Origin: Halanaerobium saccharolyticum | GTDB taxonomy: Bacteria; Bacillota; Halanaerobiia; Halanaerobiales; Halanaerobiaceae | Length of the DNA: 64,000 bases | Assembly: GCF_004362045.1 (NCBI RefSeq) | Contig: NZ_SNWX01000003.1 | Location: 1 to 64,000 of the forward strand | Reading direction: 5' to 3' | Shown here: piece by piece, positions 13,754 to 61,438 of the stretch | How the letters are laid out: every line of letters starts with the position of its first letter | How positions within the stretch are numbered: position 1 is the first letter of the stretch | Notes under the pieces: model-generated | The model's database searches: none | The model's input: only the letters and a program-made list of their open reading frames with translations | What the model was told of the DNA's origin: nothing | Position numbers and translations under genes: made by a program

Positions 13754-15103
13754 GTGCAGGGCTTATATAAATATTTAGAGGGCAGTAGTTCTACTCTAGA
13801 TGCAGAGGTTTATACAAAGGCTTCGATGATAGCGATGTCTCATTCTGTAGAAAAAGTGGTAAAAGAATATGACTTATATGCTGATATTTATGTTCTATTT
13901 CAAGAATATAAATTCTTTTTATACGAAAGAGAACGTTACTTAGAGCTGGATAATCTCTGCCGCCAGATTTTTGTATTTGCAAAAGACATTCCAGATAATG
14001 CTGCACAGGACTTTGAAAACACAACTTTTATTAATCTCAGCGATGATTCACCACTGCTCAAAGAATGGTCAGTGATTGTAGTTCATCCAGATTATTCGGC
14101 AGTGCTGGCCACAAAAGAAAAACCTGAACTGCAGAAAATTAATAAAGATGATTACCGTATTTTTAAAGGCTTTTTAAGTTTAGAGGCAGAAGTTGCCGAA
14201 GATTTGGCTAAATATTATCATAACTTACTGGAGCAGCAGAGGGTTTCTTATCAGAAGGAAGACTGGCAGCCGGAAGAATTAAATAATAAAAAGCCTGAGC
14301 TGAAGAAATTAATTTCCCTATTTATTAATGATTCTCTTTTTGAACTTGAAGATAAACTGAGGAGTCTGGAAGAAAAGGAAATGCGTTTAGATGCAATGGT
14401 AGCCGATAATAAGGAACTCAGTCGGGAGATTATGCAGAAACTCTGTGAGGCGGGAGAATTTAGAGACGAGGACAGTCTTTTCCATATTTTAAGAATTGGT
14501 TTTACTTCAGCTTTGATTTTTAGAGAATTAGGAGCATTTGAGAAGGAAATCGAAAATATTTTTTTTGCTTCTCTGCTGCATGATCTTGGTAAAATTGGAA
14601 TTCCGGATTCAATACTGCAGAAGCCCGGCAAACTGACTGCTGAGGAATATGAGGTAATGCAGAACCATCCGGAGATCGGAGCCAAAATACTGGCCGGTTC
14701 TCATTCAGAAGTATTAAACATGGCCTACAATATTGCCTATTCTCATCATGAAAAATGGGACGGCAGCGGCTACCCCCAGGGACTCAAGGGAAAAGAAATT
14801 CCAGTCGAAGCCAGAATCGTTGGCCTGGCAGATGTTTTTGATGCTCTTTCTTCCAAAAGAGTTTATAAAGATGCTTTTTCTCGCGAAAAATGTGTAGAGA
14901 TTGTAAGCAGTCAAAGAAATCAGCATTTTCAGGGGGAGATTCTGGATATTTTACTGGAGCATTTAGATGAAGTTTATGCTTTTCGCAGAGATCTAAAAGA
15001 ATTTTCGGAAGCAAAAACAACCAGAGAAGTTTCTGATTACTTTTTCTCAGTTGATTTCAGTATTTTTGAATTTTTAAAGATGAGAGAAATGATTAGTTCT
15101 TAA
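13754..15103 (+). CDS. HD-GYP cyclic-di-GMP phosphodiesterase with N-terminal DICT-like domain
   Basis: A soluble 449-residue signalling protein. Residues 1-120 resemble the DICT sensory domain (FQEYKFFLYERERY, SVIVVHPDYSAVL). A helical linker at about 190-225 looks like a coiled coil. The HD-GYP domain is complete: HDLGKIGIP with the HD pair at 276-277, the downstream NHPEIG, and HHEKWDGSGYPQGL around 331. Such domains degrade c-di-GMP. Start is GTG at 13754, preceded by GGGATGGTGAT. It follows fructokinase at a 19-base gap and may share its transcript. Confidence 0.88.
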   Translation: MQGLYKYLEGSSSTLDAEVYTKASMIAMSHSVEKVVKEYDLYADIYVLFQEYKFFLYERERYLELDNLCRQIFVFAKDIPDNAAQDFENTTFINLSDDSPLLKEWSVIVVHPDYSAVLATKEKPELQKINKDDYRIFKGFLSLEAEVAEDLAKYYHNLLEQQRVSYQKEDWQPEELNNKKPELKKLISLFINDSLFELEDKLRSLEEKEMRLDAMVADNKELSREIMQKLCEAGEFRDEDSLFHILRIGFTSALIFRELGAFEKEIENIFFASLLHDLGKIGIPDSILQKPGKLTAEEYEVMQNHPEIGAKILAGSHSEVLNMAYNIAYSHHEKWDGSGYPQGLKGKEIPVEARIVGLADVFDALSSKRVYKDAFSREKCVEIVSSQRNQHFQGEILDILLEHLDEVYAFRRDLKEFSEAKTTREVSDYFFSVDFSIFEFLKMREMISS

Positions 15104-15155: not shown

Positions 15156-15396
15156 AAATAAACAAAACTAAACCTGTGAACAGAAGAGTAGGAAATTGAG
15201 TGGAATCAGCGAATCGAGGATAGTGAGAGCTCGAGCAAAACTTAATTCTGAACCGCATCTGTGAGGTTTTTTTCTGAACTCAGTAGGAAAAAACGTAGAA
15301 CTGCGTTAAATTAGCTGAAAGTGGATAAATTATTTTATCAAGCAGAGTGGTACCACGGATCTTAACCTGTCTCTATTATATGGAGGCGGGTTTTTG
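15156..15396 (+). ncRNA. T-box leader (arginine type) controlling argGH
   Basis: A T-box riboswitch that reads the charging state of a tRNA. The highly conserved T-box sequence AGAGTGGTACCACGGA is at 15344-15359. A terminator follows: ACCTGTCTC (15365-15373) pairs with GAGGCGGGT (15383-15391) and then TTTTT. In stem I the bases GAAC-CGC-A at 15250-15257 fit a specifier loop; CGC is an arginine codon, matching argininosuccinate synthase and lyase downstream. When uncharged tRNA-Arg binds, the antiterminator should form and argGH be transcribed. The T-box identity is near certain; the exact specifier is inferred. Confidence 0.93.
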
Positions 15397-21025: not shown

Positions 21026-22081
21026 ATGCGTTTAGTTTTAACAGAGAATTTAAAAGAGGATATGGAACTGGCTAAGCCAATTTATGAAAATGGGAATATC
21101 CTTTTAAATAAAGGTGTAAAAAACCTATATAAATATAAAAAGAAACTTCTGGAAATGGGAATTAAACATCTTTATATTGAGGATAAGTATTCATATAATA
21201 TTGAAATTAATGAAGCAATTAAAGACAGCACCAGACGTAATGGCAAAAAAATTGTGACCAATACCTTTGACAGAATTAAGAATGGATTTTTAGATTTAAA
21301 CACTCAGGATTTAAAAGGTGTGGTTGAAGACATCACGGATGAACTGGTTTTAAATGAGGATGTATTATTAAATCTGGTCAGTTTAAAGAGCACCAGCAAT
21401 TATACTTATGAGCATTCAGTAAATGTCAGTGTTGTCTGTATTGCTCTGGGTAAGATGCTGGGCTACAGCAAAAATGAACTTTTTAAACTGGGAATGGGGG
21501 GAATGCTGCATGATGTTGGAAAAACTTTAATTCCTGAGGAAATCTTAAATAAGCCCGGCAGCCTGACCGATTATGAATATCAGGTAATGAAAAATCATCC
21601 GGAACTGGGTTTTAATTATCTGCAGCAGATTGAGTCGATCAGTCCTCTCTCGCGAATTGTTGTTTATTCTCACCATGAGCGGGTAGATGGATCCGGTTAT
21701 CCCCGGGGGTTAAAAGAAGACAAAATCCACGAATTTGCCAGAGTAGCTGCAATTGCAGATGTTTTTGATGCCCTGACCAGTGATCGTGTTTATCGAGACA
21801 GATGGCCTACTTATAAGGCTGCAGAATACATCATGAATCATACAGAAGAACTGTTTGATTATCAGCTGGTTAAAAAGTTTTTACCCCAGGTATCTTTTTA
21901 TCCCAATGGTTCCGAAGTTATTTTAAGCAGTGGACATCGGGCAGTGGTCAAAGATCAGAATGTGGGTTTTCCTACCCGGCCTGTGCTTAGATTAATTGAA
22001 GATGATGAAGGTAATGAGCTTGATAAGGAATTAGATCTTTTAAAACATATGAATATTGTAATTACCAAGGTGATTGTTTAA
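21026..22081 (+). CDS. HD-GYP domain phosphodiesterase
   Basis: A soluble 351-residue protein. The first about 70 residues contain a motif (LAKPIYENGNILLNKGV) found before many HD-GYP domains. The HD-GYP domain has the HD pair at 162-163 in LHDVGKTLIP, NHPELG, and SHHERVDGSGYPRGL, so the catalytic residues are intact. A short C-terminal domain (about residues 290-351, SGHRAVVKDQN) follows. Likely degrades c-di-GMP. The ATG at 21026 is preferred, with GGAGGAAGG upstream. A terminator follows. Confidence 0.9.
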   Translation: MRLVLTENLKEDMELAKPIYENGNILLNKGVKNLYKYKKKLLEMGIKHLYIEDKYSYNIEINEAIKDSTRRNGKKIVTNTFDRIKNGFLDLNTQDLKGVVEDITDELVLNEDVLLNLVSLKSTSNYTYEHSVNVSVVCIALGKMLGYSKNELFKLGMGGMLHDVGKTLIPEEILNKPGSLTDYEYQVMKNHPELGFNYLQQIESISPLSRIVVYSHHERVDGSGYPRGLKEDKIHEFARVAAIADVFDALTSDRVYRDRWPTYKAAEYIMNHTEELFDYQLVKKFLPQVSFYPNGSEVILSSGHRAVVKDQNVGFPTRPVLRLIEDDEGNELDKELDLLKHMNIVITKVIV

Positions 22082-32187: not shown

Positions 32188-32202
32188 AATCTGACAGCAG
32201 AA
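32188..32202 (+). repeat. Left arm of 15-bp inverted repeat flanking the microgene
   Basis: AATCTGACAGCAGAA here is exactly complementary to TTCTGCTGTCAGATT at 32384-32398. The two arms enclose the 28-codon gene. A possible promoter lies just to the left (TTGTCA at 32157-32162 with a TTAAAT/TAAATA around 32180). Confidence 0.85.
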
Positions 32203-32234
32203 AGAGACTAGCTTAAAAAAATGAGCCTAGCTTA

Positions 32235-32274
32235 CCTTCGTAAATGAGCTTAGAAATACAAAAAACGAAGGGAG
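32235..32274 (+). promoter_or_regulatory. Hairpin that would cover the microgene ribosome binding site
   Basis: CCTTCGT (32235-32241) pairs with ACGAAGG (32265-32271). The right arm overlaps AAGGGAG (32268-32274), the likely ribosome binding site of the gene at 32286. Confidence 0.5.
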
Positions 32275-32285
32275 CTGAATCTTTA

Positions 32286-32372
32286 ATGAAGAAGCTTTAT
32301 ATTGCTATTACAACTGCTTTAATTACATTTGGTACTGCTATTACTGTATTAGCTGACACCAGTAAGTGGTAA
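32286..32372 (+). CDS. 28-residue signal-peptide-like microprotein, possible secreted pentapeptide
   Basis: The protein begins MKKLYIAITTAL, has a hydrophobic core to about residue 21, then a good signal peptidase site (VLA before DTSKW) and stops after five more residues. If cut there, the only secreted product is DTSKW. It has its own AAGGGAG and sits inside an inverted repeat, 50 bases before a membrane HD-GYP gene. Small exported peptides next to membrane signalling proteins often act as pheromones; that role is inferred here. It could instead be a leader or a small membrane peptide. Confidence 0.6.
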   Translation: MKKLYIAITTALITFGTAITVLADTSKW

Positions 32373-32383
32373 ATTTTTGACTA

Positions 32384-32398
32384 TTCTGCTGTCAGATT
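32384..32398 (+). repeat. Right arm of 15-bp inverted repeat
   Basis: TTCTGCTGTCAGATT, the exact complement of 32188-32202, lies between the microgene stop and the HD-GYP gene start. In RNA the two arms could form a long-range stem enclosing the microgene. Confidence 0.85.
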
Positions 32399-32422
32399 TA
32401 CCAACTAAGAGGTGACTAAAAA

Positions 32423-33712
32423 GTGACTAAAAAATTAAAATTTTATTTATCAACAATATATTTATCTTTTTTGATCGTATTCATTTATTTATTTTATGAA
32501 TATGGTTTTCCAAATAATTATTCGCATATTTTATTTTTATTATCTGTAACTCTTGTGCTGAATAATTATAGCATCTTTTTTAATTATATAACTGAAATTA
32601 AAACATCTATGACTTTACCAGTTTTAATAAGTTCCTTTTATTTTATTAACCCTTTTTGGGTGGGAATTATTACAGCTATAGGAACTATAACATATAAAGA
32701 AGAGATTAAATATTTTGTTTGGTATAAATTTTTGTTTAATAGAAGTTCTATTTTTTTAGCTTCAATTTCTGGAGCTTTAATTTTTAATATTACGAGGCCG
32801 GTACTTGATGGTAATTCATTTCCTTTTTTATCTATTTTGTTAGCAAGTTTAGCTTATTTTATAATTAATAATTTCTTTGTTTACACCGTAATCAATTTAG
32901 CTGATAATGATGTGAATAAAATGACACTTGTAAGTTATTTTAGAGAGCTTTCCAAAAACTTAATAACTTCCTACTTTTTAGGATTGATTCTTCTAGCTTC
33001 CTACATTTACTTCAGTAAAGTGCTTTTTGTTCTTATTATTATATTATTATTTATTATCAAAGATTTCTTTTATTCACGCTTACAGCAGATGAATTCCTAT
33101 ACTCAAATAATTGAAAGTTTTCTAAAGGTAATTGATTCTAAAGATCACTATACTGAAGGCCACTGTGAGCGGGTAGCAAAATACACCTACCATCTCTGTA
33201 ATGAGATGAACTTATCACGGGCTAAATCAGAAAAAATTATCAGCATTGCTAAAATTCATGATATAGGAAAAATCTATGTTGATGATCATATTTTGAGAAC
33301 TTCTGATAATTTAAATGATCAGGAATACGAGGAAATCAAACGACATACTGAATATGGTTATCAACTTTTAAAAGATATAGATTTAATTAACGATGAATTA
33401 GATATTATATTATACCACCACGAGCGCTGGGATGGTAAAGGTTATCCAGAAGGCTTAAAAGGAGAAGCAATACCGGTAGGAGCCAGAATTTTAACTGCCT
33501 GTGATTCTCTGGATGTAATGATCACCGGGAGAAGCTATAAGCCGCCGATGACTAAAGAAGAAGTAATAGAAGAATTCGAAAAATGCGCTGGAGGTCAGTT
33601 TGATCCCGAAATTGCTCAAAAAATAATTGAATTAATTAAAGACGGTTATTTTGATGATAAATTTAAAAGTGAAGAGAAAATAAAAGAATTAGAATTAGCG
33701 TTTGATTACTAG
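32423..33712 (+). CDS. Multi-pass membrane HD-GYP protein
   Basis: A 429-residue protein with about six or seven membrane helices in residues 8-212, a short linker helix and a complete HD-GYP domain: HD pair at 279-280 in IHDIGKI, and HHERWDGKGYPEGL around 332. The membrane part has no recognised ligand-binding domain; it could detect an external signal and control c-di-GMP breakdown inside. The start is GTG at 32423 with AAGAGGTGA 8 bases upstream. The microgene is 50 bases upstream on the same strand, making its peptide a candidate ligand. The next gene begins 34 bases after the stop. Confidence 0.88.
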   Translation: MTKKLKFYLSTIYLSFLIVFIYLFYEYGFPNNYSHILFLLSVTLVLNNYSIFFNYITEIKTSMTLPVLISSFYFINPFWVGIITAIGTITYKEEIKYFVWYKFLFNRSSIFLASISGALIFNITRPVLDGNSFPFLSILLASLAYFIINNFFVYTVINLADNDVNKMTLVSYFRELSKNLITSYFLGLILLASYIYFSKVLFVLIIILLFIIKDFFYSRLQQMNSYTQIIESFLKVIDSKDHYTEGHCERVAKYTYHLCNEMNLSRAKSEKIISIAKIHDIGKIYVDDHILRTSDNLNDQEYEEIKRHTEYGYQLLKDIDLINDELDIILYHHERWDGKGYPEGLKGEAIPVGARILTACDSLDVMITGRSYKPPMTKEEVIEEFEKCAGGQFDPEIAQKIIELIKDGYFDDKFKSEEKIKELELAFDY

Positions 33713-33746: not shown

Positions 33747-34361
33747 ATGAATACAGAGATTAAAAAATTAATTCAAGAACTTGACGGTGTTGTTTCCTGT
33801 AATTTAACCGGGGCAGATGAGATAGATGAAATACATATTATTGCTGATAAAAAGAGAGATCCCAAGCGAATTGTGAGAGATGTAGAAACAGTCTGCATGG
33901 TACATAATGATTTTAAAATTGACCACAAAAAAATAAGTATTGCCAGAATTGATAGCAGTTTTAAAAAGGCTGTTAACGACTTTTCCAGTAATCGAATAGA
34001 GTTAGTTTCCATTTATACCGAAAATAATAGCTGCCGCTGCAATGTTAAGATGTTGATTAACGAAGAAGAAATTTTTGAATCATTTGAGGCGCAAATGGGT
34101 GAAAACCTGGAAAAACTAATTGCCAGATCAGTAGTTGAAGTTATCAATAAATATTTAGATTTTAATGGTCACCTTGTAGTGGAGGATGTTTTTACCATTA
34201 AGGGCAAGGAAGAGCTTGTAATTGCTCAGGTATATAATTTTGACAGTCAGAGTAATCGACTAAAGGAAAAATTGGTTGGTGCTGTTTATTTAGATAACAA
34301 TATAGCTCTGGCAATTGCTAAAGCCTGTTTAAAGGCAGTTAACAGACAACTATCTTCTTAA
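33747..34361 (+). CDS. Conserved hypothetical protein, possibly two ACT-like halves
   Basis: A soluble 204-residue protein. The N-terminal half contains IDEIHIIADKKRDPKRIVRDVETVCMV, which I recognise as a pattern in uncharacterised bacterial proteins; the C-terminal half resembles an alpha/beta sandwich. No catalytic motif or membrane segment is seen. ATG at 33747 behind GGGGAGAG; an opening at 33702 overlaps the HD-GYP end and lacks a binding site. The short gap to the HD-GYP gene and the shared terminator suggest one transcript. Function unknown. Confidence 0.7.
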   Translation: MNTEIKKLIQELDGVVSCNLTGADEIDEIHIIADKKRDPKRIVRDVETVCMVHNDFKIDHKKISIARIDSSFKKAVNDFSSNRIELVSIYTENNSCRCNVKMLINEEEIFESFEAQMGENLEKLIARSVVEVINKYLDFNGHLVVEDVFTIKGKEELVIAQVYNFDSQSNRLKEKLVGAVYLDNNIALAIAKACLKAVNRQLSS

Positions 34362-37856: not shown

Positions 37857-38897
37857 ATGTCTCAAATCAAATTAACTGATTACAGCAAAACTTCTGGTTG
37901 AGCATCTAAGATGGGCCCTGGGGCTCTGGCGCAGGTTCTGCGTCGCGTTAATTTTCCTGCTGATCCAGAAAAGTTATTGATCGGCCTGGACAAGGCAGAT
38001 GATGCTGCTGTATATAGCCTGTCTGAAGAACTTGCTTTAATTCAGACTCTTGATTTTTTTACTCCCATAGTGGATGATCCCTATTTATTTGGACAGATTG
38101 CCGCTGCCAATGCCTTGAGTGATGTTTATGCAATGGGAGGACAGCCGATTCTGGCAATGAATATTGTCGGTTTTCCCTCCTGTCTGGAAGCTGAAATTCT
38201 GTCTCAAATTCTGCAGGGAGGTGCCGATAAAGTAAAAGAAGCCGGAGCCAGCCTATGTGGTGGTCATACTGTAGTAGACGAAGAACCCAAGTACGGTCTT
38301 TCTGTGACGGGAACTGTTCATCCCGACAATTTACTCAGTAATTCCGGGATCAAAGAGGGTGATTTAATTTTATTAACCAAACCTCTGGGAACAGGTGTCA
38401 TGGTTGCGGCAATTAAAGGTGGATTTTCCAAAAGTGATGAGAGCAATCCGGCAGTAAAATCAATGTTAACTTTAAATAATACTGCTTTAAAATATTTTGA
38501 CCAGTATCAGATTAATGCCTGTACAGATGTGACAGGATTTGGTTTAATTGGCCATTTATTAGAAATGTCGGAAAACAGCAGTCTGCAGATTGAAGTTGAA
38601 GCTCCGGAGATTCCAGTTTTTGAGGGTGTAAGAGACTTTGCAGAATCAGGTCTTTTACCGGCCGGTGCTTATAAAAATAGAGATAATTATCAGGAATTTG
38701 TCAGCGAAAAGGGAGAGCGAGATCAGACACTTTATGATTTAATGTATGATCCTCAGACTTCAGGTGGACTTTTGATTTCTGTTGCCGAAGCAGATGCAGC
38801 TGAGTTATTAATTGATCTTTATGCTGAAGGACTGGATGTGGCTGTAATCGCAAAAGCCAGGCAGGGAAAAAAAGGAGTAAAGATAGAATGGGAGTAA
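37857..38897 (+). CDS. selD: Selenide, water dikinase containing selenocysteine (UGA codon 15)
   Basis: Makes selenophosphate from selenide and ATP. Translation begins at the ATG at 37857 (GTTGGTGAT upstream) and reads KTSG, then UGA at 37899-37901, then ASKMGPGALAQVL. This UGA is exactly at the SelD active-site Cys/Sec position, which is followed by the conserved lysine. The total is 346 residues, normal for SelD. A hairpin CGCAG-GTT-CTGCG at 37930-37942 suits a bacterial SECIS. Later motifs (GLDKADDAAVY, LSDVYAMGGQP, CGGHTV, TDVTGFGLIGH) are intact. An annotation starting at 37911 would lose the active site. Confidence 0.93.
37899..37942 (+). promoter_or_regulatory. UGA(Sec) codon and putative bacterial SECIS element
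   Basis: UGA at 37899-37901 is followed, within the reading frame, by a stem-loop CGCAG-GTT-CTGCG at 37930-37942. The loop G lies about 33 bases after the UGA, inside the window known for bacterial SECIS elements. Confidence 0.7.
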
Positions 38898-61328: not shown

Positions 61329-61425
61329 ATAACAGCAGGGGCGGAATCTTAAAATTAAGAGCTGCACCCAGTAAAAGCTGTTAAATACAATAAGTTTAGT
61401 CCACCTGGATCAATGGACTGGGATG
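61329..61425 (+). ncRNA. Structured 5' leader, possible riboswitch of unknown class
   Basis: An outer stem AACAGC/GCTGTT (61331-61336 with 61377-61382) encloses GGG-GC/GC-A-CCC (61338-61342 with 61364-61369) and an inner TCTTA/TAAGA stem. A second hairpin AGTCCA/TGGACT follows (61398-61403 with 61414-61419), directly before the ribosome binding site. Compact nested structure ahead of a vitamin-uptake type gene suggests ligand control of translation. I do not see the conserved core of TPP, FMN, cobalamin, preQ1-I or THF riboswitches. Confidence 0.5.
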
Positions 61426-61438
61426 GGAGGAAAAGAAA

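Follow-up and report, generated by a model that had tools for sequence, protein, structure and literature searches.

Introduction

The SHP/Rgg and ComS/ComR systems of streptococci are built on precursors, typically of fewer than 35 residues, that combine a hydrophobic part with a brief active C-terminal end and are encoded in most cases beside the gene of the receptor (PMC7595303). A 28-codon microgene in a 64,000-nucleotide stretch of Halanaerobium saccharolyticum DNA (the whole of which is referred to as the window) resembles these systems both in the design of its predicted precursor and in its adjacency to the gene of a candidate receptor. Furthermore, ComS ends in a Trp-rich sequence. 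The streptococcal receptors are, however, transcription factors of the cytosol, to which an oligopeptide importer delivers the peptide, whereas the partner here is a predicted membrane c-di-GMP phosphodiesterase, and the microgene, unlike its streptococcal counterparts, lies inside a conserved RNA. No gene for a cytosolic helix-turn-helix/TPR receptor of the RRNPP type was found beside the microgene, the adjacent gene being that of a membrane HD-GYP protein. In the Agr/ComD-type receptors, a polytopic membrane domain that lacks a large outer domain senses a short peptide. These receptors are histidine kinases with the processing enzymes AgrB or PCAT nearby, neither of which was seen here, where the output domain is HD-GYP.

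A second group of related systems comprises SecM, MifM and CliM. The last of these, from Clostridia, is a small ORF of at least 76 residues with an N-terminal membrane or signal segment, placed upstream of a membrane-protein gene and separated from it by an RNA hairpin in which the start site of that gene is hidden (PMC13183943). The placement of the ORF and the intervening RNA structure are alike in the locus described here, but the Shine-Dalgarno sequence that is hidden is the microgene's own. The partner itself probably belongs by family to the MASE9-HD-GYP proteins (PF20972 and PF13487), and no ligand for MASE9 was found in the sources searched. The fold of its membrane domain appears similar to that of the S components of ECF transporters (RibU, FolT, BioY), here fused to a phosphodiesterase domain; S components bind small ligands. 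Thus, the kinds of component are known (pheromone-like precursors, MASE9-HD-GYP proteins, hairpins hiding a Shine-Dalgarno sequence), while the combined system is undescribed in the sources searched: no description of the peptide, the RNA or their pairing with the enzyme was found in Pfam, NCBIfam, Rfam or the mainly open-access papers covered.

Results and discussion

A conserved microgene precedes the HD-GYP gene

The features of the locus are collected in Table 1. An earlier note on this DNA, made from the letters alone, had described a 28-codon gene with a ribosome binding site 50 bases before an HD-GYP gene, and the coordinates, the Shine-Dalgarno sequence (GAAGGGAG, read from the sequence) and the gap were found as claimed: the microgene runs from an ATG at 32286 to a stop codon at 32370-32372, followed by 50 nt up to the GTG of the HD-GYP gene. 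A longer alternative ORF starting at 32244 is also present, but the start was assigned to 32286 because the orthologs fix it there.

Table 1. Coordinates of the features of the locus (positions in the window) and the evidence for each
Feature	Position	Strand	Evidence
P1 stem, 5' arm (AATCTGACAGCAGAA)	32188..32202	+	15-nt perfect complement of 32384-32398
P2 hairpin, 5' arm (AGC-TTA-CCTTCGT)	32229..32241	+	pairs with 32265-32276; consensus structure, minimum-energy fold
P2 hairpin, 3' arm, with microgene Shine-Dalgarno sequence (AAGGGAG, 32268-32274)	32265..32276	+	sequence, consensus structure
Microgene, 28-aa peptide MKKLYIAITTALITFGTAITVLADTSKW	32286..32372	+	frame conserved in orthologs, pN/pS 0.18, relatives phylum-wide
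P1 stem, 3' arm (TTCTGCTGTCAGATT)	32384..32398	+	complementarity; U-tract after arm in most relatives
Membrane HD-GYP protein, 429 aa	32423..33712	+	MASE9-like membrane domain (residues ~1-220), HD-GYP domain (~235-397)
Gene B, 204 aa, conserved neighbour, function unassigned	33747..34361	+	downstream here; upstream of microgene in other lineages

Many of 61 related genomes carry a full-length ortholog of the HD-GYP protein, and a small ORF lies at the same place, directly upstream, in 26 of the 26 loci that could be read. The reading frame is conserved as well, with a pooled pN/pS of 0.18 over eight Halanaerobium copies. The earlier note had named the lack of such an ORF in relatives, or conservation of the DNA but not of the frame, as the outcomes that would count against it, and neither was observed. 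Since pN was 0.08 against a pS of 0.47, it is the frame that is selected and not the DNA alone; the microgene is under purifying selection, and a chance small ORF is ruled out by this ratio together with the controls. The original observation is thereby confirmed, and it is much larger than first described.

The same arrangement was found outside the class by means of a peptide profile, and in other families of the phylum loci were located using gene B, the conserved neighbour, as an anchor. At all 70 gene B loci with an HD-GYP gene next to them, a microgene of 19-30 codons stands just before the membrane HD-GYP gene, compared to none of the 23 gene B loci with readable DNA and no HD-GYP gene next. 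In a search using only the peptide profile, the 11 freshly fetched loci all carried the HD-GYP gene next door; among these is a genus that has its best gene B match at another place and a further copy of gene B at the microgene locus. In total, the profile matched 72 of 299 genomes sampled, a few of these being chance matches inside long frames. Genus members without the HD-GYP ortholog (G005 and G007) also lack the RNA element described below.

Pairing of the microgene with gene B instead of the HD-GYP gene was rejected, as the microgene is missing wherever gene B occurs without HD-GYP, and the Halanaerobium gene B is placed on the opposite side. Pairing with MASE9 in general was likewise rejected: none of five other MASE9 genes in the same genomes has a microgene, which is therefore specific to one HD-GYP lineage. 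One convincing copy of the microgene and RNA is present per genome, including that of the window; of the candidates for second copies none was convincing, and weak matches in G044 and G039 were signal peptides of larger proteins. The genome holds 23 HD_5 matches, and the window contains two further HD_5 domains (14495-14938 and 21389-21865), neither with a microgene by the peptide profile. At one locus (L039:1494-2789), a tandem MASE9-HD-GYP paralog with no microgene seen before it adjoins the copy that has one.

Gene B was detected in 161 of the 398 phylum genomes and matches no Pfam or NCBIfam family, while its AF2 model resembles in part the regulatory (amino-acid binding) domain of LeuA/citramalate synthase. 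Several loci have it flanked by secA on one side and an hpf-like gene (ribosome hibernation factor) on the other. The large ORFs adjoining the microgene in the window encode fumarase-like, HD-GYP and gene B proteins; no transporter was recognised among those read, and no conserved peptidase or peptide exporter was seen beside the microgene. Elsewhere in the window, a SelD (selenide, water dikinase)-like gene at 37857-38897 is interrupted by a TGA in frame at 37899, with SGUASK as its context, and probably encodes a selenocysteine-containing SelD, the start of which is missed by standard ORF calling. A T-box leader (15167-15377, 116 bits) and a pan motif RNA (pantothenate-type leader; 61338-61430, 46.6 bits) were also detected.

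The partner is a predicted c-di-GMP phosphodiesterase

The window HD-GYP protein matched Pfam HD_5 with 113.5 bits (cut-off 27.2), and H247, H279-D280, K283, H308, H332-H333, the GYP motif at 340-342 and D361 are invariant in 44 homologs. A fold search with the model of the protein matched HD-GYP structures in the PDB. By domain score and residues the partner qualifies as an HD-GYP c-di-GMP phosphodiesterase, and hydrolysis of c-di-GMP is predicted. The catalytic residues are thus intact, as reported earlier. In the AF2 model, which is confident (mean pLDDT 90), the membrane domain consists of five long helices and two short ones, in agreement with the 6-7 helices of the earlier note.

The window protein itself does not match MASE9 (PF20972), though 26 of the 44 homologs do, among them an ortholog 80% identical to it (G003). 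The nearest solved membrane folds are the ECF S components, with a TM-score of approximately 0.5-0.58 depending on the target and a weak E-value (~0.5). These data suggest that the membrane domain is MASE9-like and, more weakly, that its fold is similar to that of an S component.

The peptide tail covaries with the membrane domain

No match over the curated cut-off was obtained for the peptide in Pfam or NCBIfam. Its length, in the relatives of the window and in the wide family, is nearly always 19-34 residues, with one of 13. A tail similar to the DTSKW of the window ends most of the 26 readable orthologs (ESSRW, ETSHWR, DSTRWG, DTTHWG, SLSRW, GDSAQFGAR), and across 88 peptides the C-terminal part follows one pattern, in which a small residue precedes an aromatic one, Lys/Arg and Trp come next, and the Trp is often followed by some additional residues. 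In 69 of these peptides Trp lies within the last seven residues; the remaining 19 mostly have I, L, M, F, Y or A instead. The signature LAGGA-x-[FYW]-[KR]-W occurs in most of the 70 gene B loci with HD-GYP, with looser matches in L148, L188, L218 and L219.

In most families the uncharged core is approximately 12 residues long and ends in GG, a length that fits a signal peptide better than a membrane anchor. In one family, however, forms of 19-20 residues have lost or reduced the hydrophobic core and kept the C-terminal Trp (L159, L160, L200 and L202), and a member of the Halanaerobiales (L028) likewise keeps the Trp with no usable core. Sec secretion therefore cannot be universal, and these forms argue against Sec export in their lineages; cleavage by signal peptidase and Sec secretion of exactly DTSKW are putative. 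With their core reduced or lost, the short forms in L159, L160, L200 and L202 amount to a natural experiment on the requirement for the leader. Two known classes of exported peptide were rejected. A cyclic AgrD-type autoinducer does not fit, the window peptide having no Cys and no AgrB among its neighbours, and Cys for ring closure is almost absent from the 88 family peptides. A double-glycine (PCAT) peptide was dismissed on the grounds that, despite the GG of the wide family, the window peptide has VLA, with no transporter recognised adjacent to it.

With HD-domain and gene B distances held constant, the distance between tails tracked the distance between membrane domains (partial r of 0.45 for n = 21 and 0.23 for n = 55, with no permutation as high), a link that is modest at n = 55 and was gauged by permutations that do not model phylogeny. 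No such link was found for the HD domain, gene B or the peptide's own leader part. The covariation could in part derive from faster evolution of the membrane domain; without amounting to proof, it is the trace that would be expected if the tail were recognised by that domain. Of the earlier proposal that the peptide is sensed by the HD-GYP membrane domain, the pairing was borne out by the strict co-occurrence and the tail covariation, while the sensing itself is something that we infer.

Both of these observations would fit equally well with a small membrane subunit, in which the peptide, uncleaved, is retained in the membrane as a regulatory subunit bound to the membrane domain of the HD-GYP protein, in the manner of CydX, KdpF or MgrB, an explanation differing from that of a ligand only in cleavage. 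The hydrophobic segment is conserved in most members, and a Trp near the end of such a segment is typical of membrane peptides. On the other hand, a membrane-spanning helix would be expected to be longer than the uncharged stretch of most families, short forms such as MKKVMRIVARLLSGGSNFMW probably do not cross the membrane, and the part that covaries is the tail and not the leader. A membrane subunit is accordingly considered unlikely, and an exported tail acting as a ligand is preferred.

The microgene is enclosed in a structured leader RNA

The stem P1 encloses the whole microgene, its 3' arm beginning 12 nt after the stop codon. The earlier note missed this RNA, although the start that it reported, 32188, is exactly the first base of the P1 5' arm. 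In an alignment of 20 orthologs, 97% of the P1 cells were paired and changes on both sides were seen in 12 of its 13 aligned pairs, a signal that was abolished by sliding the partner. The copy in the window folds 4.3 standard deviations better than shuffles. A covariance model found one copy per genome in 28 genomes (E below 1e-19), and every match for which the surroundings were read lies before the HD-GYP gene. Among the gene B loci tested, P1 was present in 44 of 49; out of 40 shuffles, no more than 3 did as well.

The fraction of T in the ten bases after the P1 3' arm was 0.62, compared to 0.30 in the next fifty, and 36 of 53 loci have at least five T in eight bases. Stem and U-tract together thus give P1 the make-up of a terminator that closes an RNA of roughly 200 nt, and by this sequence pattern P1 probably acts as a terminator or attenuator between the microgene and the enzyme. 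The structured leader as a whole suggests that production of the peptide is regulated. A simple promoter scan upstream of the element gave nothing above chance.

Neither the window's copy of the element nor the copies at 27 related loci were matched by Rfam covariance models, applied at gathering and at permissive thresholds (most at E up to 1-5), the chance-level matches lying elsewhere or below the curated score; a known riboswitch or RNA family was rejected on this basis as the identity of the leader. The leaders of most families (L127-L193) contain repeated (G/U)AGCGG motifs, which in the Halanaerobiales (32207-32255 in the window) are replaced by AGCUUA repeats. CsrA-type GGA repeats were considered as a reading of the AGCGG motifs, but Halanaerobium has AGCUUA instead.

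A different function for the peptide could lie in cis, where its synthesis, or a stall of the ribosome at the Trp codon or the stop codon, would open or close P1 and so govern the HD-GYP gene at the level of transcription or translation, as in TnaC, TrpL and CliM. Such a leader peptide would explain why the microgene is surrounded by a covarying stem, with a U-tract following ahead of the next gene, why Trp is conserved at or near the last codon, and why forms lacking a core are tolerated, given that nothing but the C-terminal end of the nascent chain would then be important. Sensing of Trp-tRNA does not fit, however, with the 19 peptides that have no Trp in the last seven residues, and a Trp attenuation leader (TrpL/TnaC) was rejected for this reason. 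Several residues may follow the Trp and the distance from the stop codon to P1 varies widely among loci, unlike in stall-site designs; P2 holds the microgene's own Shine-Dalgarno sequence and not that of the downstream gene, and the covariation of the tail with the membrane domain has no place in such a model. An arrest peptide of the SecM/MifM/CliM type was rejected on the basis of the same stem-held sequence and of the chain lengths given above, at which the chains would probably not emerge from the ribosome while being made. Overall, control in cis by the nascent peptide appears improbable.

Paired mRNA ends and a hidden Shine-Dalgarno sequence around a short hydrophobic ORF are features of AapA/Hok-type mRNAs, which the RNA around the microgene resembles. 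A small hydrophobic toxin of type I, with its mRNA kept inactive by these structures, is nevertheless a very remote prospect given the single copy per genome, the same neighbour across many families and a tail that covaries with the candidate receptor domain.

Proposed mechanism

The explanation favoured here, with about an even chance of being correct, is that the membrane domain has the exported C-terminal tail as its dedicated ligand, with the leader RNA in control. The precursor would begin with a positively charged N-terminus, continue as a hydrophobic leader and end in a tail of approximately 5-9 residues, DTSKW in the window and typically GG-A-N-F-K-W elsewhere. The tail would reach the outer face of the membrane, probably with the leader as signal peptide, and would then be released or retained at the membrane. 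There it may bind the S-component-like (MASE9-like) membrane domain of the adjoining HD-GYP protein, and binding would alter the c-di-GMP phosphodiesterase activity. Production would be set by the leader RNA, in which P2 is predicted to hide the ribosome site of the microgene, while P1, often with its U-tract, would close the RNA and may attenuate transcription before the enzyme.

Conclusions

No ligand is known for many of the membrane sensors found in c-di-GMP enzymes, and here a candidate ligand is encoded next door, so that the ligand question can be tested with synthetic peptides of 5-9 residues. The RNA class and the microgene family are absent from the databases searched and occur in roughly a quarter of the phylum genomes sampled. 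Tentatively, and at slightly less than even probability, the locus may represent a widespread and undescribed peptide-gated c-di-GMP phosphodiesterase system. A membrane receptor joining an S-component-like part to HD-GYP would then have a short Trp-ended peptide from an RNA-enclosed microgene as its cognate ligand outside the cell, and the breakdown of c-di-GMP would be coupled directly to signalling between cells or of a cell to itself.
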